From NCBI RefSeq assembly GCF_019599145.1, contig NZ_CP080647.1, positions 5,394,001-5,458,000 of the forward strand: 64,000 nucleotides of DNA, given 5' to 3'. Of the stretch, positions 45,955-63,792 are shown one piece after another. This stretch comes from Streptomyces akebiae. GTDB lineage: Bacteria > Actinomycetota > Actinomycetes > Streptomycetales > Streptomycetaceae. The notes beneath the pieces were generated by a model that saw only the letters and a list, made by a program, of their open reading frames with translations, made no database searches and was not told the origin of the DNA. The position numbers were made by a program, and so were the translations under genes. The first letter of the stretch is position 1, and each line of letters opens with the position of its first letter.

Positions 45955-46588
45955 TTGACAGTCCACACCGTGATCCGTAGAGTTCTTCGGGTTGCCGCGG
46001 GGCCGTAACGGTTCTGCGACAGCACCTCCGCCGCTCAAGCGGCACCCAAACCAACCAGCACGATCTCCCAAGCGGGGCGAATTCGATGTGCCCGAATTCA
46101 ATTCGATTTGGGTTCGGTATGGGTTCGACAGGCCCGATTGGGAACTGCCGGACAGATCCGCTAAGGTTTGGGACGTCGGAACGGCCCAACAGCCGTGAAG
46201 GCAACACCCGCTGACTGGGAATCAGGCCCGAAAGGATCTGATAGAGTCGGAACCGCCGGAAAGGGAAACGCGAAAGCGGAAACCTGGAAAGCACCGAGGA
46301 AATCGGATCGGAAAACGATCTGATAGAGTCGGAAACGCAAGACCGAAGGGAAACTGCCCGGAGGAAAGCCCGAGAGTAGCTTGGGTGAGTACAAAGGAAG
46401 CGTCCGTTCCTTGAGAACTCAACAGCGTGCCAAAAATCAACGCCAGATATGTTGATACCCCGTTCCCGGCCGGTCATCGGTTGGGGCGAGGTTCCTTTGA
46501 AACAAACACAGCGAGGACGCTGTGAACCATCGGATCATTCCTCCGGTGGTTCCGCTCTCGTGGTTTGCACCCGATTACGGGTACACAT
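45955..46588 (+). promoter_or_regulatory. rRNA operon promoter and leader region
   Basis: TTGACA (45955-45960), 17 bp, TAGAGT (45978-45983) is a near-consensus promoter. Farther on, an exact 18-bp repeat GATCTGATAGAGTCGGAA is at 46235-46252 and 46317-46334; each carries a -10-like TAGAGT, so they are probably two more of the multiple rrn promoters known in Streptomyces. TTGAGAACT at 46411-46419 recurs in the 16S-23S spacer (48390-48398) and looks like the boxA antitermination element. No gene is in the region. Confidence 0.75.
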
Positions 46589-51542
<4,954 letters not shown>

Positions 51543-51627
51543 GTTGCTCGCGTCCACTGTGTTGGTTCTGAAACCACGAACAACCCCACGTCTGTCACAG
51601 AGCGTGGTGCGGTTGAGTGTTTCATAG

Positions 51628-51747
51628 TGTTTCGGTGGTCATAGCGTGAGGGAAACGCCCGGTTACATTCCGAACCCGGAAGCTAAGCCTTACAGCGCCG
51701 ATGGTACTGCAGGGGGGACCCTGTGGGAGAGTAGGACGCCGCCGAAC
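51628..51747 (+). rRNA. rrf: 5S ribosomal RNA
   Basis: About 120 nt, starting GTTTCGGTGGTCATAGCGTG and ending GGACGCCGCCGAAC, with complementary ends and the conserved CCGAACCCGGAAGCTAAGCC. Last gene of the operon. Confidence 0.96.
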
Positions 51748-52918: not shown

Positions 52919-54646
52919 TTACGGCAGCGGGAGTTCGGCGTTCGGCCAGCGGGATCTGGCCTGTTCGCGGGAGCGGAGGAGGGCCAAGGTGGGGAGGCCC
53001 TGGTCGGCGCCGCCGGTCAGCAGGGCGGGGAGCTGGGGCAGTGGGGCCACGGCCGCCACGTCGTCCAAAACGAGGGTGAGTGGTGGGTCGAGGCGGCCGG
53101 AGGATGACCGTTCGGCCATGCGCCGGCCGCGCTCGACCACGCTTGAGGCGAGGGCCGTCAGGAGAGGCATCGCGGAGGGGTTCGCCTTGGGGTCCTCGAT
53201 GGGGTCGCCGACCACATAGAGCGTTCCCCCCTCGTGCACGAAGGAATCCAGCGCCAGGGAGTCGGCTCGGTTCGGGGCGCAGGCCTCGCGGACGTTGACC
53301 GTGGAGAGGGCGGAGAGGGCACGGGCCGTCAGCTGCTGGGCGATGTCGCGGCGTTCGGGGTGCGAGGTGAGGGCCGACTCCAGTTCGCCCGCCGCGCCGG
53401 GGGCCGCCTTCGGGTTCGTCCGCAGGGTGCGGACCGCTTCCTGGACGTTGCTGCCCTGGGCCCAGCGGTGCAGGTGGCGGATGGTGCGGGTGTCTATGGC
53501 GGCGGCGTGGAGGTAGCTGCGCAGGAGGGTCTCCGCGGTGTCCGCCACCGCCTGGTCGATCCTGGCGGTGGGGCGGATGGGCGCGAGGAGGGCTACGGCC
53601 CTGGCCAGCGCCGTCGGCTTGTCCTCGCAGCCGGAGATGGGCGACCAGTGGAGGCGGGCCGGGGTGTCGCAGCGGTGCGCGGGGTCGTAGAGGAGGACCG
53701 GGCCCAGCTTCGCGCGGGCGTCCTTCGTGTCCGACCAGAGCGTGGGGTCGGAGGTGACGACGAGGGCCGGTCCTTCGGCGTCCCGTACGGCCTGTGCTGC
53801 GACCGGGCGCCGGGACTCGGCGGGGCCGAGGACGACCGTGGGGGCCGGGTTCGCCCAGCCGGCGTCGGTGGGTGCGGTGCTGCCGGTTGTGGTGGTCAGG
53901 GGGGTGGTGTGTGCGCCGGCCGGGGCCGCGAGGGACGCGGCCGCCGACCCACCGAGTGGGGGTGTCGCGCCGACCTCGGCCGCCGGGGCGGGGGACGCGC
54001 TGTGACGTGGTTCGGGGACCGACGTGGAGGGGGCCGGGTGCGGAGCCGGGAACCCGGCGGGCGGAGCGAGGCCGCCGCCGGGGCTGGTGGTCCGGCCGGT
54101 GGCCCGGCCGGAGGTGTGTGGTGGGGCGGGTGTGCTGGTGGGCGGAACCTCGTGCTGGGCGTGGTCCACGGTGTACGGCTGGGCAGGGGGTGCCTGCTCC
54201 ACGGGGACGACGGTCGGGTCCGGGTGCTGGACCGGTCTCCCTGTCGTCGCTCCGCCCTGCCTCTGGGCTCGTGCCGCCTTCTCCCTCGCTCGTACGGCCC
54301 GCCAGCGGGCCAGGGTGCCCATCGTGAAGACGGCCAGGACGAGGAGGACCATGAGCTGGCTGATGAAGAGGCCCCAGAAGAGGCCGTAGCCGGAGAGCTG
54401 GGCGGCGGGGGTGTCCGGCCAGGCGGCGGGCAGGTCCTGGGGGGCGGAGACCAGGCTGCGCACGGCCAGGGGTGTGCGGGTGAAGGTGACGGCGTCGGGC
54501 CAGGCGCCGTGGGCGAAGAGGCCGGCGAGGCCGGTGGCCGACCAGACCAGCAGGGTCAGGCTCACCAGGAAGCCGAGGAGGGCGATCAGCAGCCCGTCGG
54601 GGATGCCGCCTCCGCCCTGCTGGGGGCGCCTGTCGTCCGGTCTCAT
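52919..54646 (-). CDS. cmdA: VirD4/TraG-like membrane protein (CmdA position)
   Basis: A 575-residue protein with two N-terminal membrane segments (LLIALLGFLVSLTLLVWSAT and GLFWGLFISQLMVLLVLAVF), a long Pro/Thr/Ala-rich linker (about 130-290) and a C-terminal ATPase-like region (ALVVTSDPTLWSDTKDARAK, LGPVLLYDPAH, LHWSPISGCED, LTLVLDDVAAVAPLPQLPAL). The latter resembles VirD4/TraG coupling proteins (GPV-DP and SPL-like motifs), but no clear Walker A is present and the C-terminus is short. Last gene of the operon; its ATG overlaps the TGA of a small upstream ORF. Symbol by gene order with S. coelicolor SCO4126 (memory). Confidence 0.7.
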   Translation of the reverse strand: MRPDDRRPQQGGGGIPDGLLIALLGFLVSLTLLVWSATGLAGLFAHGAWPDAVTFTRTPLAVRSLVSAPQDLPAAWPDTPAAQLSGYGLFWGLFISQLMVLLVLAVFTMGTLARWRAVRAREKAARAQRQGGATTGRPVQHPDPTVVPVEQAPPAQPYTVDHAQHEVPPTSTPAPPHTSGRATGRTTSPGGGLAPPAGFPAPHPAPSTSVPEPRHSASPAPAAEVGATPPLGGSAAASLAAPAGAHTTPLTTTTGSTAPTDAGWANPAPTVVLGPAESRRPVAAQAVRDAEGPALVVTSDPTLWSDTKDARAKLGPVLLYDPAHRCDTPARLHWSPISGCEDKPTALARAVALLAPIRPTARIDQAVADTAETLLRSYLHAAAIDTRTIRHLHRWAQGSNVQEAVRTLRTNPKAAPGAAGELESALTSHPERRDIAQQLTARALSALSTVNVREACAPNRADSLALDSFVHEGGTLYVVGDPIEDPKANPSAMPLLTALASSVVERGRRMAERSSSGRLDPPLTLVLDDVAAVAPLPQLPALLTGGADQGLPTLALLRSREQARSRWPNAELPLP

Positions 54647-54774
54647 CGCTCGCCGCCGCTCACGCCGTGTCCTTCGCCGCAGTTCACGCCGCTCACGCCG
54701 CTTCCTCCGCGCCGTTCACGCCGTTCACGCCGTTCACGCCGTTCCCCGTCCTGCCCCTGCTCGTTCCGGCTCAT
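54643..54774 (-). CDS. Possible small ORF between the two ATPase genes, with Glu-Arg-Arg repeats
   Basis: A 43-codon frame starts at ATG 54774, 11 bp after the VirB4-like gene's stop, and ends in TGA at 54643-54645, overlapping the ATG of the next gene (ATGA). The product contains a GERRERRERRERRGG stretch encoded by a 9-bp tandem repeat (CCGTTCACG on the plus strand, 54712-54747) and ends in a Gly-rich tail. Start-codon support is weak, but the overlap with the next gene's start suggests translational coupling. It could equally be a spacer that keeps ribosomes moving between genes. Confidence 0.4.
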   Translation of the reverse strand: MSRNEQGQDGERRERRERRERRGGSGVSGVNCGEGHGVSGGER

Positions 54775-54785
54775 CCCTGGTCCGC

Positions 54786-56219
54786 TCAAGCCACCGTCGA
54801 CTCGGAGGAGCCGTACCCGTCGACCTCGCTCAGTTGCTGTTCGACGAACGCGGCGGCCCGCTCCTCCGCCTCCAGCTCGGCGGCGTGCAGGGCGTCGTCG
54901 TCCAGCAGGTGGTCGACGGAGGATTCGGTCATCGCGCGGTCGGTGAAGACGAGGGGGCGTTCGGTCTCGGTGATGAGGTGTTTGACCACCTGCACGTTGC
55001 CGTTGACGTCCCAGACGGCGATGCCGGGGGTGAGGGTGGGGATGATCTCCACCGCCCAGCGGGGCAGGCCCAGGACGCGGCCCGTGGCCCGGGCCTCGTC
55101 CGCTTTCTGGGCGTAGATCGTTCTGGTGGACGCCATCTTCAGGATGGCCGCGGCCTCCTTGGCGGCCGCGCCGTCGATGACGTCCGACAGGTGGTGGACG
55201 ACCGCGACGAAGGACAGACCGAGTCGGCGGCCGAACTTCAGCAGGCGCTGAAAGAGCTGCGCGACGAAGGGGCTGTTGATGATGTGCCAGGCCTCCTCGA
55301 CCAGGAAGATGCGCTTCTTCCGGTCGGGGCGGATCCAGGTGTGCTCCAGCCACACGCCGACGATCGCCATGAGGATGGGCATGGCGATGGAGTTGCGGTC
55401 GATGTGGGACAGGTCGAAGACGATGAGGGGCGCGTCGAGGTCGATGCCGACGGTGGTGGGGCCGTCGAACATGCCGCGCAGGTCACCGTCGACCAGGCGG
55501 TCCAGGACCAGCGCGACGTCCAGGCCCCAGGCCCGTACGTCGTCTATGGCGACGTTCATCGCCTCGGCGGACTCCGGCTCGGGGTGACGGAGCTGCTCGA
55601 CGATGTCGGTGAGGACCGGCTGACGTTCGACGATCGTCTCGTTGACGTAGGCGTGCGCGACCTTGAGGGCGAAGCCGGAGCGTTCGTCCAGACCGTGGCC
55701 CATCGCGACCTCGATGATCGTCCGGAGCAGCGCGAGCTGGCCCGTCGTGGTGATCGAGGGGTCGAGGGGGTTGAGGCGGATGCCCATGTCGAGGGCGGCG
55801 GTCGGGTCCAGGCGGATGGGAGTTATTCCCAGCTCTTCCGCGATGAGGTTCCATTCGCCGACGCCGTCCTCGCCCTGGGCGTCGAGCACGACGACCTGGC
55901 GGTCGCGGAAGCGCAGCTGCCGCAGGACGTACGTCTTCTCCAGGGCCGACTTGCCGTTGCCGGACTCGCCGAGGACGAGCCAGTGCGGGGCGGGGAGCTG
56001 CTGGCCGTAGAGCTGGAAGGGGTCGTAGATGTAGCCCTTCCCGGAGTAGACCTCGCGGCCGATGATCACGCCGGAGTCGCCGAGGCCGGGGGCCGCGGTC
56101 GGGAGGTAGACCGCCTGGGCCTGTCCGGTGGAGGTGCGGACCGGGAGGCGGGTCGTCTCGACCTTGCCGAAGAGGAAGGACGTGAAGGCGTCGGTGAGGG
56201 CGGAGATCGGGTCCCTCAT
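54786..56219 (-). CDS. cmdB: VirB4/TraE-like ATPase (CmdB)
   Basis: A 477-residue cytosolic ATPase. Walker A GESGNGKS is at residues 84-91. Motif B-like RIFLVEEAWHIINSPF and the following FGRRLGLSFVAVVHHLSDVI are VirB4/TraC hallmarks. It is shorter than conjugative VirB4 (about 800 residues) because the N-terminal domain is reduced. The start has GGAGGTG 8 nt upstream. It would power a type IV-secretion-like membrane complex with the neighbouring genes. The S. coelicolor counterpart (SCO4127, cmdB) is reported to affect differentiation and antibiotic production (memory). Confidence 0.85.
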   Translation of the reverse strand: MRDPISALTDAFTSFLFGKVETTRLPVRTSTGQAQAVYLPTAAPGLGDSGVIIGREVYSGKGYIYDPFQLYGQQLPAPHWLVLGESGNGKSALEKTYVLRQLRFRDRQVVVLDAQGEDGVGEWNLIAEELGITPIRLDPTAALDMGIRLNPLDPSITTTGQLALLRTIIEVAMGHGLDERSGFALKVAHAYVNETIVERQPVLTDIVEQLRHPEPESAEAMNVAIDDVRAWGLDVALVLDRLVDGDLRGMFDGPTTVGIDLDAPLIVFDLSHIDRNSIAMPILMAIVGVWLEHTWIRPDRKKRIFLVEEAWHIINSPFVAQLFQRLLKFGRRLGLSFVAVVHHLSDVIDGAAAKEAAAILKMASTRTIYAQKADEARATGRVLGLPRWAVEIIPTLTPGIAVWDVNGNVQVVKHLITETERPLVFTDRAMTESSVDHLLDDDALHAAELEAEERAAAFVEQQLSEVDGYGSSESTVA

Positions 56220-56273
56220 CAGCGCTTCACCTCCAGGTGCGGTTGGATCGGATGGTCCCGCATCGCGATGGCC

Positions 56274-57833
56274 CTACCTTCGGATTCCGGTGGCGAACGG
56301 GAGCGTGTTGACGAAGGCCCGGTGGTGCTCGCGGTCGCACCACTCCAGCTTGAGGTACGACTTGCCGGCCGAGGCCCTTATCGTCCGCTTGTCGCGGGCC
56401 AGTGCCTCCGGTGAGCGGGAGGAGACGGTGATGTACCCGACGAGGTTGACGCCTGCGGCGCCGCTCGCGAGGTCCTCGCCGCGTTGGTCGAGGCGGGAGT
56501 GGGAGGCCACGTCACGCGGGTCGACGGTGCGGTTCATCTTGGCGGCGCGGGACGCCTCCGCCTCGTCGTTGGTCTTCTCGGTCAGCATGCGTTCGATGGC
56601 GACCTCGGTGGGTTCGAGGTCCATCGTGACGGCGACGGTGCGGATGACGTCCGGGGTGTGGACCAGGAGGGGCGCCAGGAAGTTGACGCCGACCGGGGTC
56701 ATCGGCCACTCCTTCACCCAGGCCGTGGCGTGGCACCAGGGGGCGCGGGTGGAGGATTCGCGGGTCTTGGCCTGGAGGTAGTCCGGCTCCATCGCGTCCA
56801 GTTCGGCCGGCCAGGCGTTGCGCTTGGTCATGGCCTGGATGTGGTCGATGGGGTGGTCCGGGTCGTACATGGAGTGGATGAGGGAGGCGAGGCGGCCCTG
56901 GCCGAGGGGCTGCCGTACGCGGATGTCGGCCTCCTGGAGGCGCGAGCAGATGTCCGTCAGCTCGCGGGCCATGACGACGGCGAGGCCGGCGTCCTTGTCG
57001 AGCTTGCGGCCCTGGGGGCGGGCGGCGCGGGCCATGGCGTGGCCCTCGGCGGCCAGTTCGCGGGTGTAGTGCATGCACGCGACGAGGTAGGCGCGGTGCT
57101 GCTCGCTGCTGGTGGAGACCATGGACTGCAGTTGGTCGTACGACTGCTGGAGCCAACCGGGGGCGCGGTCGTCGCCGCGCTGGGCGACGTCCTTGGCGTG
57201 GGCGTCCGGGTCGGCGGGCAGCGTGCGGGCGAGCATCTGGAGGCGGGTGACGAAGCCGTCGCCGTTGGCCACGTGCTTGAGGAGGGTGCCGAAGCGGTCG
57301 ACGAGGGCTTCCTGGTCCTCGGAGTCGCGCAGGCCGACGCCGGGGCCCTCGATCTCGATGGCGGCGGTGACGGTCCGGCGGTCGGCGTGCAGCAGTACGG
57401 CGATCTCGTCGGGGCCGAAGGGCGCGGCGAGCCAGGTGATGCGGCCGATGCCGGGCGGGGGGCCGACCTCGACCTCACGGCCGTCGAGGCGGGTGCCAGC
57501 CTCCATGTTGGCGGAACGGTACGTCGTGCCCCTGCGCAGGCTGCGCTTGTAACTGCGGTTGATCTCGAACCACTTGTAGAAGGTCCGGCGCTTGTACGGC
57601 ACGTACACCGCGGCCAGCGCCAGCATCGGGAAGCCCGTCAGCAGGGCGATGCGCGGGACGAGCACCGGGACGAGAAGGCCGCACATCATGCCGAGGAACG
57701 CGCCCGCGATGATCAACGCGATCTCGCCGGACTCGCGGTTCCGGCCGATGATCGCGTTCGGCCGGGCGCGGCCGATCAGATAGGTACGGCGGGGCGTGAT
57801 CGGATGGGACAGGTGGTGGGACTCGGTCGTCAA
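56274..57833 (-). CDS. cmdC: SCO6880/PrgI-like membrane protein (CmdC position)
   Basis: A 519-residue protein with two close membrane segments (IALIIAGAFLGMMCGLLVPV and LLTGFPMLALAAVYV, about 38-80) followed by a large cytosolic domain (about 430 residues) with no Walker A. It matches the type called SCO6880 family in actinobacteria, with a PrgI/TcpE-like N-terminus and a VirB4-N-like soluble part. Together with CmdB it may make up a split VirB4. Its ATG is preceded by GGAGGTG within the upstream gene, whose stop it overlaps (ATGA at 57830-57833). Confidence 0.75.
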   Translation of the reverse strand: MTTESHHLSHPITPRRTYLIGRARPNAIIGRNRESGEIALIIAGAFLGMMCGLLVPVLVPRIALLTGFPMLALAAVYVPYKRRTFYKWFEINRSYKRSLRRGTTYRSANMEAGTRLDGREVEVGPPPGIGRITWLAAPFGPDEIAVLLHADRRTVTAAIEIEGPGVGLRDSEDQEALVDRFGTLLKHVANGDGFVTRLQMLARTLPADPDAHAKDVAQRGDDRAPGWLQQSYDQLQSMVSTSSEQHRAYLVACMHYTRELAAEGHAMARAARPQGRKLDKDAGLAVVMARELTDICSRLQEADIRVRQPLGQGRLASLIHSMYDPDHPIDHIQAMTKRNAWPAELDAMEPDYLQAKTRESSTRAPWCHATAWVKEWPMTPVGVNFLAPLLVHTPDVIRTVAVTMDLEPTEVAIERMLTEKTNDEAEASRAAKMNRTVDPRDVASHSRLDQRGEDLASGAAGVNLVGYITVSSRSPEALARDKRTIRASAGKSYLKLEWCDREHHRAFVNTLPFATGIRR

Positions 57834-59161
57834 CGCCCTTCACCTCCGGTGCGGTTGCTGTTGCGGGTGTTGCCGGCGTGGGGGGTGTTGACCGGGCTCG
57901 TGCGGGGCGGGGGTGCGGCGGAGGGGACAGTTCCGCCGCTGCCGCTCGCGCTGCGCGAGCTGTGGGCGGCCACGCCGCCGGATGCGGGGTTGGACGGGCG
58001 GGGGGTGCTGCTTCCGCCGCCCGAGCCGTTGTTGTCGGCCCGGGAGCTGTGGGTCTTGATGCCCTGGGCGACGAGGGTGGCGGGGGAACTGATCACGGCG
58101 GCGGCCTTGCCTTCGGCGCCGCGCATGATGCGGTTGTTGCGGGAGTTGGCGATCTCGTCGCCGAAGCCCGGGACGAAGCGGTAGATCATCGCCGAGGCGA
58201 AGATGGCGAGCAGGATGATGGCGAGGCCGGAGACGACGGCGGCGAGGGAGTCGGGGCCGTCCTCGGTGGTCAGGGCGCCGGCGAGGCCGAGCACGATGAC
58301 GATGACGGGCTTGACCAGGATGATCGCGATCATGATGCCCGCCCAGCGGCGGACGTGGCCCCACAGGTCCTTGTCGACGAGGCCGGCGTACACGACGACG
58401 CCGAGGAGGGCGCCGACGTAGAGGAGGACGGCCCTCAGGTACAGCTCCAGGTACAGCACGCCGGCGGCGACGATGGAGACCAGCGACACCAGGATCAGCA
58501 TGATGGGGCCGCCGCCGATGTCGTTGCCCTTCTTCAGGGCCTCGGAGAACGTCCCGAAGAACGTGTCCGTCTGGTTGCCGGTCGTCCGGGCGATGATGTC
58601 GCTGACGCCGTCGGTGGCCGAGACGATGGTGTAGAGGATCAGGGGCGTGAAGGCCGACGCGAGCACGGTCAGCCAGAGGAAGCCGATGGCCTCCGAGATC
58701 GCCGTCGTGAACGGCACGCCGCGGACGGCCCGCTTCGTGACGGCGAGGAGCCACAGCACGAGCGTGAGGATTGCGGAGGCCGCGAAGACGACCGCGTAGT
58801 GCTTCAGGAACGTCATGTTCGTGAAGTCGACGTCGGCGGTCTCGTTGACGGCTTCGGAGAGCTTGTCGACGGTCCAGGAGGCGGCGTCTGCGCAGCCTTG
58901 GGCTAGGGAGGAGAGGGGGTCGAGGGTGGTGGTGAGGTCGTTGGGGGTACTGCCCGAACCGCCGCCGCCGCCACCGCCGTTGTCGCTCTCGCAGTACTCC
59001 CTGGCTGCTCCGGAGAGCAGCGAGCAGGAGTCGCCACTGGGCGAGGGAGAGGGTGATGGTGTGGGTGCGGCGACTGCACGCGTCGCCAGCAGGACGACTG
59101 CGGCCTGTACGGCTGCGAAGGCTGTGGCGACCTTGAGTACGCGGTGTGGCCTACCGGGCAT
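57830..59161 (-). CDS. cmdD: TrbL/VirB6-like polytopic membrane protein (CmdD position)
   Basis: A 443-residue protein with an N-terminal signal-like segment (VLKVATAFAAVQAAVVLLAT), a Ser/Gly-rich extracytoplasmic stretch, and five to seven membrane segments (HYAVVFAASAILTLVLWLLA, FLWLTVLASAFTPLILYTIV, ILVSLVSIVAAGVLYLELYL, WAGIMIAIILVKPVIVIVLG, VVSGLAIILLAIFASAMIYR). The C-terminal tail is Ser/Gly/Asn-rich. This is the layout of the TrbL/VirB6 channel family. It overlaps its neighbours by 4 and 11 nt. Confidence 0.75.
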   Translation of the reverse strand: MPGRPHRVLKVATAFAAVQAAVVLLATRAVAAPTPSPSPSPSGDSCSLLSGAAREYCESDNGGGGGGGSGSTPNDLTTTLDPLSSLAQGCADAASWTVDKLSEAVNETADVDFTNMTFLKHYAVVFAASAILTLVLWLLAVTKRAVRGVPFTTAISEAIGFLWLTVLASAFTPLILYTIVSATDGVSDIIARTTGNQTDTFFGTFSEALKKGNDIGGGPIMLILVSLVSIVAAGVLYLELYLRAVLLYVGALLGVVVYAGLVDKDLWGHVRRWAGIMIAIILVKPVIVIVLGLAGALTTEDGPDSLAAVVSGLAIILLAIFASAMIYRFVPGFGDEIANSRNNRIMRGAEGKAAAVISSPATLVAQGIKTHSSRADNNGSGGGSSTPRPSNPASGGVAAHSSRSASGSGGTVPSAAPPPRTSPVNTPHAGNTRNSNRTGGEGR

Positions 59162-60017
59162 AGGTGAACCCTCCGTACTCCTCGACGGCCTTCGAGATCT
59201 CGTCGGACGTTGAGACCTTGTTGTCGCCGTTGACCGGCGCGGGGCCTTCCTTCTGCGCGAAGCTGTCGACCTTCCAGTCGTCGTTCTCCCAGCGCAGTCG
59301 GAGGGACATGGTGAACCAGTCGCTGGTGACCGGGGTGGTCGTGTCCTCCGACGCCATGCCGAATACGCCTGTACACCAGACCTCTACAGTCGCGGTGCTG
59401 TCCGAGTAGCTCGTGGTCGTGGTGCCGACTGGCATGGTGCGTGAGACGTATGTGCTGCCGGACGGTGCGTTGCCGTCATCGTCCAGTCCGACCTTGTTCA
59501 AGAAGTCCGTGTCGTACACCGTGTTCAGGCGGTCTTCCAGCTCGGCCGACTTGTCGGCGGTGAAGACTTGCCGCACGATCTCGCTCCGTCGTACGGGTTT
59601 GAGGATGTCGGCCGAGACCAGCACCACCGAGTAGTTGGCCGCCGCCGATTCGGCGCCCTGCTGGTCGTGGGCGAAGCCGGAGGGAATGTCGCCGGTCTTC
59701 GTCGTGACCGGTCGCTCCCCCGAAGCCGCGGTCGGTGCCGTTTCCGCTTTGTCGCCCCCTGAGCCCGCATCCGTGTCGGATCCCCCACCCCCCCGGTTCG
59801 CGAAGGCGATCGCGGCGATGAGGAGGACGACTACTCCGACGATGGTGACGAGGCTTCTGGAGGAGGAGCGGGGGCGGCGGGGGGCGCCGCCGTAGGGGTC
59901 GTCGCCGCCCTCGGGGAGGCGGGTCCGGGTCTGGCCGGTGCCCGCGTACCCCCCGTACGCCCCGTCGTCCCCGGAGCGCGAGGGCTCGCGGTAGCCGTGC
60001 TCGTCGCCGAGACTCAT
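59151..60017 (-). CDS. cmdE: TcpC/VirB8-like membrane protein (CmdE position)
   Basis: A 288-residue protein: a cytosolic Gly/Arg-rich N-terminus, one membrane segment (RSLVTIVGVVVLLIAAIAFA, about 53-72), then an extracytoplasmic NTF2-like domain (AAANYSVVLVSADILKPVRR, EIVRQVFTADKSAELEDRL, DSTATVEVWCTGVFGMASED, WFTMSLRLRWENDDWKVDSF). This bitopic layout is that of VirB8/TcpC scaffold proteins. It overlaps the next gene of the operon by 11 nt. Upstream, a 206-bp gap separates it from the small pilin-like gene, so a second promoter is possible. Confidence 0.75.
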   Translation of the reverse strand: MSLGDEHGYREPSRSGDDGAYGGYAGTGQTRTRLPEGGDDPYGGAPRRPRSSSRSLVTIVGVVVLLIAAIAFANRGGGGSDTDAGSGGDKAETAPTAASGERPVTTKTGDIPSGFAHDQQGAESAAANYSVVLVSADILKPVRRSEIVRQVFTADKSAELEDRLNTVYDTDFLNKVGLDDDGNAPSGSTYVSRTMPVGTTTTSYSDSTATVEVWCTGVFGMASEDTTTPVTSDWFTMSLRLRWENDDWKVDSFAQKEGPAPVNGDNKVSTSDEISKAVEEYGGFTYAR

Positions 60018-60223
60018 GCCGCGGTCGCCCCTTCAACTTCGACGTCGTACCGAAAGGCGTAGCAGTACGACGGTAGCCGCGCTGGTTCCCGCGCGGGCGC
60101 GGTGTGGAGACTCGACATCAGGGAAACGCAACCTCAGCCGGTGGGCACGACGGACGGGTGGGGTGGGAGGGGAACCGGGCGAGGCCGGTGGCCCGGCCGG
60201 GGCGGGTGCCGGCGGTGGCCGGG

Positions 60224-60541
60224 CTACACGGCCATGCCGTACACGATGGTGAAGAGCGTGCCCAGTGAGCCGATGATGAAGACGCCGGTGAGGCCGGCGA
60301 TGATGAGGCCCTTGCCCTGTTCGGCGCTGAAGGTGTCGCGGAGGGCGGTCGCGCCGATGCGCTGTTTGGCCGCACCCCAGATCGCGATGCCGAGGCAGAG
60401 GAGGATGGCGACCGCCATCACGACCTCGATCATCACGCGTGCCTCGTTGCCCAGGTCGCCGAAAGGCCCCCAGTCAGGGGCGATTCCGCCGATGATGGTG
60501 GTGATGTCGCCCTTGTCGGCCGCAACGAACATGTAAGTCAC
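60224..60541 (-). CDS. cmdF: Small two-helix membrane protein, VirB2/TrbC-like (CmdF position)
   Basis: A 105-residue protein with two membrane segments (VMIEVVMAVAILLCLGIAIW and LIIAGLTGVFIIGSLGTLFT) joined by a short basic loop (GAAKQRIGATALRDTFSAEQ), the shape of VirB2/TrbC-type pilin-like subunits. GTG start at 60541, with an in-frame ATG three codons later. It is the first gene of the minus-strand operon. Confidence 0.75.
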   Translation of the reverse strand: MTYMFVAADKGDITTIIGGIAPDWGPFGDLGNEARVMIEVVMAVAILLCLGIAIWGAAKQRIGATALRDTFSAEQGKGLIIAGLTGVFIIGSLGTLFTIVYGMAV

Positions 60542-61158: not shown

Positions 61159-63792
61159 GTGAGCGAGGACAGGCCCGTTGTCTCGGCCGAGATACCGGAG
61201 TTCACAGGAAATCTGGAGCAACTGGAGACGGACGCCGGGGACATCGCGTTCGACGGGATGGCGATCGGCGCCGCGGGTCTGCTGATCGACGCCAACTTCA
61301 ACCTGCTGGAACCTTTCTACAAGGCCCCGGAGGCCGACCAGCTCTTCGCGACGACCGCGCCTGTCGCGGCGGCCGGCCACGACCTGCAGACCGAGCTGGG
61401 CACGGTCTCCAAGGCGCTGCTCGACTACGCGGCCGAGGTCCGGCCCCTGGTCGACCGGCTCAACTCGCTCCGCGCGGAGGCGGCGGCGTTCGAACGGCGC
61501 GTCGCGGACGACGACGACTGGGTCGCCGACGGCGACCTCATCGACGAGAACACGGCCCGCCGCAACGCGGTGAACGCGGCCTGGACCGCCTTCCAGGCGG
61601 CCGAGCGGGCCTGCTACAACAAGATCGTCGCGCTGGTCGGCGGCGAGCCGCTCGCCGTCGGCGACGGGTCGGACAAAGAGAACACCTACGGCTACCGCGC
61701 CGAGGACCTGAACAACGCCGGCGGTCTGCCGTGGGGGGACGTCGTCGAGGAGTCCAACCCCTGGTACTACTTCCACGAGCACGCCTGGGACTTCACGGTC
61801 GGCTTCGTCGTGGACGGCGTGTGGGGCACGATCAAGGGCCTCGGCACCCTGGTCGGCTTCAACGGCTGGGACGCGGCGGGCCAGGCCTGGGTCGGCCTCG
61901 GCAAGCTCGCGACCGGCATCCTGATCACGGGAACGCCGCTCGGTGCCGCGTACTGGCTGACCCCGGCCGACAAGCTCCCCTCCTGGCTGCGCGACTCCCG
62001 TACGGCGGTCGTGGAGACCGGGAAGGCGCTGATCGCGTACGACGAGTGGGGGAAGAACCCCTCGCGGGCGGCGGGCGCGGTGACGTTCAACGTCCTGACG
62101 ACGGTTTTCACGGGTGGGGCGGGCGGAGCGGTCGCGGCGACCGGCAAGGCCGGTGCGATCGCGAAGGCCATCTCCTTCGCGGGCAAGGCGGGGCGGATCG
62201 TCGACCCGATGACGTACATCGCCAAGGGCATCGGCGGGACGGCCGTCAAGATCAGTGACGTCATGGCCGGGCTGCGGGGGATCACGAACGGCACGCACAT
62301 CAGGCTGGGCGAAGGCACGTATCAGATAGCCGATCCCCCGAACATCGCCGACGACCTCCCGGCCCGCCTCACCCCCGAGAACTCCGTTCGCATGACGACC
62401 CCCGAGGGGGAGGTCGTCTACCTCGACACCACGACGCAGGTCGTGCACAACGCGGACGGGACCGTACGGGAGTCCCTGGACGCCATCCGGCATGAGCGGA
62501 CGGCGGAGCAGCGGGCGGACCAGCAGGGAGGGGAGACCGGGACACCGAGGACTGTCAACGATCACGAACTGGTGGGCGCCGGGACGGGAACGCGCGCTGG
62601 GGACACCGCGGCGGTGGGAGGCCGCGGGGGTGACTCGGCGGCTGTCGGTGGGCGTGGGGGCGACCATCCGGCCGGTTCCGGGGGGCGTACTGACGGGGGC
62701 CCGCCGGTGGGCCGAGGGGGTTCGGGTGGCTCCGGTGGCGGTGGACTGGAAGATCTCGGACGGACCGGTGACGACGGGCAGGGTGACGGGGGGCGTGCCG
62801 GGGACGACGTGTCGGGGGACGGAGCGGACGGGACGACGCGGCCGGACGGCGACGGTACGGGTGGGCACACCGCGGGTGAGCGGCCAAGCTTCATGCGGGA
62901 GGGTGGCAATCCCTATGGGCCGCGCGGGTCGCTCACGAGGGAGCAGATCGAGGAGATTCAGGTCTGGCGGGCGAACAACGAACCCGGATATCGCGAGCAT
63001 TATTACCGAAAAGACGGCACACGCAGGAGTCTGGAGCTTTACGACGAGAGCGGCCAGACGCCGCCTCAGCTGACACGGGTGTCGGAGGGTTCCCCGTGGG
63101 TCCGGGCCAAGGACGTTCCCGCGCCGCCCAAGCCGCATTTTCTCGACGACGATTACATCAGCGTGGGCGCGGACACCGTGTCCAGCAGTGCCAGGCTTCG
63201 ACTGCTGGAGGAGAGTGCGCGGACCCGCCACCTTGCCATCCGGTGGGACAACCTCATGTTGGAGTGGAAGGCGGACACCGGCCGGGCCCACCAGGTCCAG
63301 CAGACTCATGAATCGGCCGGGCTTTGGGGCGAGGCCAAGGGGGCGTACAAGGAATCCCACACGGCGATGGGCGACGCGGCCGAGGCGTTGGGCGAGAACG
63401 CCGCCAGGCATCACTACATCGCCGAGCGCTACCCCGACTTCACGGACGAGCCTCTTCTCGGGCCGAAGAGCGGCAACGACCAGTTCGACCAGGTGTGGAC
63501 ACACGAGGACGGACGGGTCGTCGTCATCGAGGCCAAGAGCAGTCCGAGAACGGATTTCGGCAGGCGCACACTTCCGAATGGAAAGCAGGTCTCCCAGGGA
63601 AGCAGGGAGTACTTCTACGACATTCTGGAGGCGATGAAGAGGCGAGGGGAATTCGAGTTGGTGGACGCCATTGAAAGGGCCATCGAGAACAAGCAGCTGG
63701 AATACACGGCCGTCAAGGGTGAGAAAAACGCGGGGACCTACACTGGTTACCAGTACCGTCGGTTCGACATCAGCAAGGGGACGCTTCCGTGA
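61159..63792 (+). CDS. Polymorphic toxin: T7SS-like N-terminus and PD-(D/E)xK nuclease tip
   Basis: An 877-residue protein. The helical N-terminus (about 1-170; FYKAPEADQLFATTAPVAAA, LLDYAAEVRPLVDRLNSLRA) resembles the WXG/LXG-type export region of type VII-secreted toxins. A hydrophobic middle (about 205-400; WDFTVGFVVDGVWGTIKGLG) is shared by Streptomyces polymorphic toxins. A Gly/Asp-rich linker (about 465-575) leads to the C-terminal domain with FDQVW (Asp777) and VVVIEAKSS (Glu791, Lys793), the D...ExK core of a restriction-endonuclease-fold toxin, then GKQVSQGSREYFYDIL. It would cut nucleic acid in target cells. GTG start at 61159 with GGGGG upstream. Its stop overlaps the next start. 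Confidence 0.85.
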   Translation: MSEDRPVVSAEIPEFTGNLEQLETDAGDIAFDGMAIGAAGLLIDANFNLLEPFYKAPEADQLFATTAPVAAAGHDLQTELGTVSKALLDYAAEVRPLVDRLNSLRAEAAAFERRVADDDDWVADGDLIDENTARRNAVNAAWTAFQAAERACYNKIVALVGGEPLAVGDGSDKENTYGYRAEDLNNAGGLPWGDVVEESNPWYYFHEHAWDFTVGFVVDGVWGTIKGLGTLVGFNGWDAAGQAWVGLGKLATGILITGTPLGAAYWLTPADKLPSWLRDSRTAVVETGKALIAYDEWGKNPSRAAGAVTFNVLTTVFTGGAGGAVAATGKAGAIAKAISFAGKAGRIVDPMTYIAKGIGGTAVKISDVMAGLRGITNGTHIRLGEGTYQIADPPNIADDLPARLTPENSVRMTTPEGEVVYLDTTTQVVHNADGTVRESLDAIRHERTAEQRADQQGGETGTPRTVNDHELVGAGTGTRAGDTAAVGGRGGDSAAVGGRGGDHPAGSGGRTDGGPPVGRGGSGGSGGGGLEDLGRTGDDGQGDGGRAGDDVSGDGADGTTRPDGDGTGGHTAGERPSFMREGGNPYGPRGSLTREQIEEIQVWRANNEPGYREHYYRKDGTRRSLELYDESGQTPPQLTRVSEGSPWVRAKDVPAPPKPHFLDDDYISVGADTVSSSARLRLLEESARTRHLAIRWDNLMLEWKADTGRAHQVQQTHESAGLWGEAKGAYKESHTAMGDAAEALGENAARHHYIAERYPDFTDEPLLGPKSGNDQFDQVWTHEDGRVVVIEAKSSPRTDFGRRTLPNGKQVSQGSREYFYDILEAMKRRGEFELVDAIERAIENKQLEYTAVKGEKNAGTYTGYQYRRFDISKGTLP

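Follow-up and report, generated by a model that had tools for sequence, protein, structure and literature searches.

A 64,000-nucleotide stretch of the 10.5 Mb genome of Streptomyces akebiae (contig NZ_CP080647.1, positions 5,394,001 to 5,458,000), referred to here as the window, contains the cmd locus, six minus-strand open reading frames (ORFs) at positions 52919-60541 in the order cmdF-E-D-C-B-A. The clustering of these six genes had been described in the first-pass annotation of this DNA and is confirmed. The operon is taken here as the ortholog of cmdABCDEF (SCO4126-4131) of S. coelicolor, based on gene order, gene roles and the shared position (residue 90) of the Walker A lysine, and not on direct comparison of the S. 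coelicolor DNA. The gene products resemble parts of type IV secretion systems (T4SSs), and it appears that in Streptomyces and its near relatives a plasmid machine for DNA transfer has become a fixed, chromosomally encoded membrane machine on which normal sporulation depends. The genes are the following (TM, transmembrane; aa, amino acids).

cmdA, 52919..54646, minus strand: VirD4/TraG-like coupling protein, degenerate, with a truncated C-terminus
cmdB, 54786..56219, minus strand: C-terminal ATPase half of a split VirB4 (AAA_10 and VirB4-family matches; PDB 4ag5, VirB4-like)
cmdC, 56274..57833, minus strand: PrgI/VirB3-like membrane hairpin fused to the VirB4 N-terminal half (SCO6880 family)
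cmdD, 57830..59161, minus strand: VirB6/TrbL-like polytopic membrane protein (sub-cut-off profile matches)
cmdE, 59151..60017, minus strand: VirB8/TcpC-like protein with one TM-like segment and an NTF2-like outer domain
cmdF, 60224..60541, minus strand: 105 aa protein with two TM-like regions, a candidate VirB2/pilin-like subunit

Motor, coupling protein and envelope components

The VirB4 component is split over two genes, with CmdC providing the membrane and N-terminal half and CmdB the ATPase half. CmdB matches AAA_10/VirB4-like profiles (5.5e-13) and, weakly, DUF87/TrwB, and by sequence it finds the VirB4-like ATPase structure 4ag5. The intact Walker A motif expected of a T4SS VirB4 is present (GESGNGKS, the lysine being residue 90) and is kept in 181 of the 181 CmdB orthologs scoring >700 bits. 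When this lysine was mutated in S. coelicolor complementation was lost, and the authors allowed that the change may have destabilised CmdB (Xie 2009, PMC2782261). CmdC matches SCO6880_fam (NF042935) at 3.6e-53. Its AlphaFold model (mean pLDDT, the predicted local confidence score, 68) retrieved 14 structures with Foldseek at E <= 0.001, after which there was a sharp drop; every one is a chain from an R388 T4SS entry, four coming from depositions titled TrwK/VirB4 alone and the others from whole-complex entries. The first-pass annotation had considered the VirB4-like protein to be reduced, a description that was dropped in favour of a split VirB4 given the SCO6880-family match and predicted structure of CmdC, the Walker A motif of CmdB being intact. 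Two Streptomyces genomes have cmdB in two pieces (G226:C22:4553-5954 and G242:C1:5337089-5338582), possibly frameshifts or assembly errors.

CmdA matches the TraG-D_C profile only weakly (E 0.011, below the cut-off), and the match is confined to positions 1-49 of the 126 in the profile. When aligned with VirD4 proteins that keep their motifs, its Walker A site reads GPAESRRP at about residue 274, and Walker B is LDD near residue 527, with about 48 aa left before the end of the protein. Among 174 CmdA-like ORFs, 157 span the Walker A region and none of these has the GK of the motif, which bears out the earlier observation that the coupling-like protein seems to lack Walker A; species are shared between some of the loci, not all of which are independent. 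The cluster therefore lacks the VirD4 with intact catalytic motifs of the Gram-positive minimal T4SS. Walker B could be read in 132 sequences, as DD in 126, ED in five and DG in one. The tail that follows LDD has a median length of 48 aa (70 sequences), and that following Walker B in three motif-intact VirD4s is 161-187 aa. A CmdA ortholog from family f2 (L175) is partly decayed, with GPARSGKA, LDD and a 128 aa tail, and in family f3 no CmdA was found beside cmdB in five of five loci. In two of ten f3 genomes, one of which is a single contig (G158), there is no VirD4-like match. Read from these sequences, relatives in the order may preserve intermediate, dead and locus-absent stages of CmdA decay, a series that we put forward tentatively and jointly with the scaffold reading described below.

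Median ratios of non-synonymous to synonymous substitution (dN/dS), from 36 pairs of nine close sequences, are 0.19 for the ATPase-like part of CmdA, 0.054 for CmdB, 0.074 for CmdC, 0.26 for CmdD and 0.51 for CmdE; CmdF gives 0.094 over 30 pairs. The C-terminal region of CmdA, including LDDVAAVAPLP, is highly conserved. By these sequence comparisons CmdA is under purifying selection despite its lost motifs, and it looks like a pseudo-ATPase. The loss of the motor motif from the DNA-loading part, alongside an intact second motor, suggests that DNA is no longer moved in the usual way.

The remaining membrane components are assigned with differing strength. CmdE has no significant Pfam match, and its AlphaFold model is that of a VirB8-type, NTF2-like membrane protein; T4SS folds, which the first-pass annotation had asked of predicted structures, are thus seen in both models, those of CmdC and CmdE. 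The S. coelicolor counterpart, SCO4130, is included as a glycoprotein in the glycoproteome of that species. CmdD matches TrbL_4 at 1.3e-5, just below the curated cut-off, and SCO6881_fam at 2.8e-5, far below it; an ortholog (L193) matches SCO6881_fam at 1.4e-8, and among the CmdD-like proteins one plasmid relative has a TrbL match (1.9e-4) and five others tested have none. A paralog of CmdF has a sub-threshold T4SS_pilin match (0.018). Of the parts named in the first-pass annotation, the VirB4-, SCO6880- and VirB8-like ones are upheld by profiles and by the CmdE model, and the VirD4- and TrbL-like ones have sub-cut-off matches; the VirB2-like one remains weak.

A further component, absent from the first-pass annotation, is a 335 aa protein with SLT and NlpC/P60 domains, a cell-wall hydrolase of VirB1 type. 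Its gene was present in 57 of the 84 loci with at least 5 kb of sequence upstream of cmdF and is divergent from cmdF in 64 of the 64 loci where both were found, with a gap of 79-323 bp in six f2 and f3 loci. From these gene neighbourhoods the hydrolase is shown to belong with the cmd core as a recurrent partner. In a transposon study SCO4127-SCO4131 (cmdBCDEF) and SCO4132 (tgdA) were named as actinorhodin downmodulators, and SCO4126 is not named in that article (whole-word count 0), which cites a 2013 article in whose title SCO4132 is "a putative transglycosylase" influencing differentiation and actinorhodin (PMC6585502).

Inheritance, plasmid relatives and the neighbourhood of cmd

Conservation across Streptomyces, a check proposed in the first-pass annotation, proved to be nearly complete: CmdB is found at >=87% identity in 148 of 150 genomes of the genus, the others being G127, with no CmdB match, and G139 (a draft of ~1010 contigs), with a weak match only. 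The 15 genomes of the order that belong to other genera all have CmdB, at 80-84% identity. A survey of 394 genomes of the class added a single one from outside the order (G287, 78%); in other genera of the class identity is at most 39%, and matches of 49% are second copies in Streptomyces. No CmdB homolog in 207 plasmid records reaches 60% identity. In a CmdB tree of 46 rows, in which several long branches make the deeper order unsure, the 25 cmd rows form one clade (support 97/98), and the second chromosomal copies of the window genome (L173) and of another Streptomyces (L188) group with seven of nine plasmid copies (100/99). The mobile, patchy distribution of an integrative and conjugative element (ICE) is thus not seen, and these sequences show CmdB to be vertically inherited. 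In family f20 of the same class, many genomes have a CmdB relative (~31-32%); at loci L182-L184 the genes are clustered as B-C-D-E, and this may be a second fixed system.

The closest architectural relatives are plasmid T4SS modules (NZ_CP108576, NZ_CP108308, NZ_CP109145 and others). In ten of ten modules fetched, all six Cmd profiles match in the order F-E-D-C-B-A, including a CmdF counterpart in the same position, and in the ten best records CmdB is 40-49% identical to the cmd copy. Unlike cmd, the modules are plasmid-borne, some have extra small genes, and their coupling protein keeps GK[T/S] and DE (nine of nine). One of the ten records carries no annotation; in eight of the other nine the gene next to F is annotated as a cell-wall hydrolase and in the last it encodes an unnamed protein, and the SLT-P60 family of cmd itself is beside the F gene in two of the ten. 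The transfer genes of SLP2 have been reported to resemble cmdB-D (PMC2782261).

The first-pass annotation had argued from the absence of a relaxase. Profiles of TrwC (PF08751) and Relaxase (PF03432) searched over 20 genomes, all of which have cmdB, match in six genomes each, and ten genomes have neither; homologs of cmd are thus not always linked with a relaxase of these two families. No relaxase is linked to cmd, the nearest PF08751 or PF03432 matches, the families covered by the search, being at 57 kb (G091) and 76 kb (window genome, G000). The observation therefore stood; its use as the chief argument for domestication was dropped, because 118 of the 207 plasmid records with CmdB homologs were typed non-mobilizable by MOB-suite and a missing relaxase alone is a weak sign of domestication.

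Two other T4SS-like loci were observed in the window genome. A complete plasmid-type cmd-like operon is at G000:C1:1395875-1403394 (L173:6875-14394), with CmdB at 49% and intact coupling motifs, and a TrwC relaxase is ~57 kb from it at 1337409. A second T4SS-like cluster (G000:C1:4635706-4652016; L096, L097) has intact VirD4 motifs (GPRTGKTT), a 999 aa VirB4 (TcpF-like) and two proteins assigned by eye, one of 715 aa that looks like an SLT/M23/P60 protein and, further out, one resembling a zeta toxin. It was considered as a rival universal system and rejected, a close VirB4 being found in only two of 81 genus genomes, the window genome included.

Upstream of cmdF, the window clade has a gene that was also absent from the first-pass annotation.

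Polymorphic toxin-like gene, 61159..63792, plus strand: between cmdF and the divergent hydrolase in the window clade; a neighbour and not a core part

It is followed directly by an Imm49 gene (1.2e-74), the start of which overlaps the toxin stop; the pair is listed at window 61159-63792 (plus strand) and L095:3789-4652 (plus strand). The toxin-like protein has a conserved N-terminal 380 aa, with 1427 homologs among 7997 candidates scored, some of which are named Tox-REase-5/7 or YwqJ deaminase. A second copy of this N-terminal domain (74% identity) is at G000:C1:6251581-6252702, 0.8 Mb from cmd. Compared with the cmd and tgdA arrangement of S. coelicolor, in the window genome 11.4 kb, with the toxin-Imm49 pair and other genes, lies between cmdF and the SLT-P60 gene, which is past the window end. 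In a plasmid, pMDJK44.2 (L215:24579-30089), a DUF6531 protein is encoded after the coupling gene of a related T4SS module. Proteins with DUF6531 are often toxin-associated.

At the other end, a complete ribosomal RNA (rRNA) operon is present at window 46588-51747, just past the cmdA end of the operon, and many draft contigs that end near cmdA may do so because of it. Short tandem repeats (periods 32 and 9) occupy the cmdA-cmdB gap at window 54654-54744.

Function of cmd and competing explanations

The operon and its phenotypes have been in print since 2009, as has the proposal of a type IV-like channel, and the first-pass annotation was correct that the S. coelicolor cmd genes affect differentiation (PMC2782261). 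In that study single deletion of SCO4126 (cmdA) gave sporulation like the wild type, and the other single cmd deletions gave light grey colonies with seemingly fewer spores. Deletion phenotypes were seen in three species. CmdA is dispensable for the known developmental role. A literature search, outside which most subscription journals lay, returned no account of a decayed CmdA, of a split VirB4 or of cmd and tgdA as one machine.

The view that cmd, a relative of the Streptomyces plasmid T4SS, has been domesticated by the host and fixed in the chromosome is well supported, given that nearly all genomes of the order have it at high identity, that its CmdB clade is separate from plasmid copies, that no plasmid homolog reaches 60% identity and that the coupling protein is decayed. 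The domesticated complex proposed in the first-pass annotation is therefore retained, on evidence other than that originally offered. As to what the complex does, we consider it somewhat probable that in aerial hyphae cmd serves for export or acts like a pilus, independently of a coupling protein, and that the segregation defects are a later consequence; DNA is unlikely to be the cargo. The core would comprise the CmdB and CmdC motor, CmdD, CmdE, CmdF and the divergent TgdA/SCO4132-type hydrolase. The motor would drive a trans-envelope structure in aerial hyphae without loading by a coupling protein, either assembling a CmdF-based pseudopilus or conduit or exporting a protein or surface component that reaches the cell surface by another route, as in T4SSs that lack VirD4. 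TgdA would open the peptidoglycan for this structure, and defects of septation and segregation would follow from disturbance of the envelope during aerial growth and not from failed DNA pumping. The fuller form of this proposal, in which a Gram-positive T4SS without a live coupler serves host development, with TgdA as wall opener and CmdA surviving as a pseudo-ATPase scaffold, is advanced more tentatively, as a serious possibility.

Several observations weigh against this proposal. Anucleate spores made up 8% in the cmdB deletion and 6% in the cmdA-F deletion, compared with 0.1% in the wild type, and were taken by Xie 2009 as pointing to a role in segregation (PMC2782261). CmdA is still conserved and so must do something; the intermediate state of its putative decay comes from one f2 locus, and as a distant VirD4-like protein (31-35%) is encoded elsewhere in eight of the ten f3 genomes, its apparent loss there could be relocation. 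CmdE, with the highest dN/dS in the operon, is fast-evolving. Evidence for CmdD as a VirB6-like protein is weaker, consisting of sub-threshold matches, and that for CmdF as a VirB2-like one is weak, drawn from its size, two TM-like regions, position and the sub-threshold match of a paralog. In 27 of the 84 loci the SLT-P60 gene was not found within the flank available, and its probable identity with tgdA/SCO4132 is drawn from gene numbering and a cited title. The substrate, pilus and complex are predicted only.

The main rival is that of Xie 2009, in which cmd pumps DNA at sporulation, for segregation or between compartments, with CmdB in the part of an FtsK/SpoIIIE-like motor whose channel is formed by the other proteins. 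In addition to the anucleate spores, it would account for the unevenly spaced nucleoids of cmdB and cmdA-F mutants (PMC2782261), and it is consistent with the grouping of VirB4 motors with SpoIIIE/FtsK/HerA ATPases (PMC12857230) and with the weak DUF87/TrwB matches of CmdB. Against this, the DNA-loading subunit of T4SSs is here without its ATPase motifs or gone from the locus, early defects are seen in the mutants as well (aerial growth is delayed and hyphae branch and collapse), plasmid transfer was unchanged by cmd deletion (stated as data not shown, PMC2782261), and a peptidoglycan hydrolase partner points to crossing of the wall and not only of the membrane; we regard a DNA pump as somewhat unlikely. 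If CmdA were instead a live regulatory pseudoenzyme, gating or docking substrates on CmdB without ATP hydrolysis and so keeping the classic order of translocation, the constraint on its ATPase-like part and its conserved C-terminal region would be expected. This is unlikely given that deletion of cmdA caused no apparent sporulation defect in S. coelicolor (PMC2782261) and that the gene is absent beside cmdB in the f3 loci.

Export of the adjoining polymorphic toxins, with their immunity genes, is suggested by the toxin-like gene and Imm49 beside the operon in the window genome, by ToxN family members beside cmd in five of 80 named loci (one partial) and by the DUF6531 gene after the related plasmid module. 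The toxin as cargo is ranked low, and the idea is quite unlikely, because ToxN is so rarely present (none in the available flank of 75 of the 80 loci, some flanks being short) and many different genes occupy the interval upstream of cmdF in other strains; the toxin paralog is also far from cmd. Finally, cmd might be a decaying remnant ICE without a function of its own, the phenotypes being accidental. The lack of a nearby PF08751 or PF03432 relaxase and the decayed coupling protein are in keeping with this, and defective ICE is a label that automated screening may give to such loci; one defective ICE, possibly cmd, is reported mid-chromosome in all strains of one study (PMC9513070). Such a remnant is already contradicted by the conservation of CmdB in the genus and order and by the mutant phenotypes in three species, as well as by purifying selection, and is highly improbable.

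Comparison with known systems

According to a 2025 review, nearly all known functions of Gram-positive T4SSs are DNA translocation (PMC12857230). If the proposal of a coupler-independent machine is true, cmd would be a genus-wide counter-example, a Gram-positive T4SS that serves its host, and living relatives, which differ in the state of their coupling protein, would provide a test of how a conjugation machine drops DNA transfer and keeps another function. It would also tie cmd and tgdA, two published loci, into one testable machine, and the decay of CmdA would offer a reason why deletion of cmdA had no visible effect on sporulation.

The T4SSs without VirD4, namely Bartonella Trw, Brucella VirB, ComB of Helicobacter pylori and Ptl, resemble cmd in being VirB4 systems that function without VirD4, their roles including two-step protein export, proposed adhesive pili and DNA uptake (PMC12857230). 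They differ from cmd in that they are Gram-negative, have other functions and lack the coupling gene altogether, which is not kept as a pseudo-ATPase. When compared with the Gram-positive minimal T4SS (VirB1, B3, B4, B6, B8 and D4; PMC12857230), cmd has VirB1-, B3/PrgI-, B4-, B6- and B8-like parts, the evidence for B6 and B3 being weaker, and is distinct from it in having VirB4 over two genes, a VirD4 without ATPase motifs and a role in development, not conjugation.

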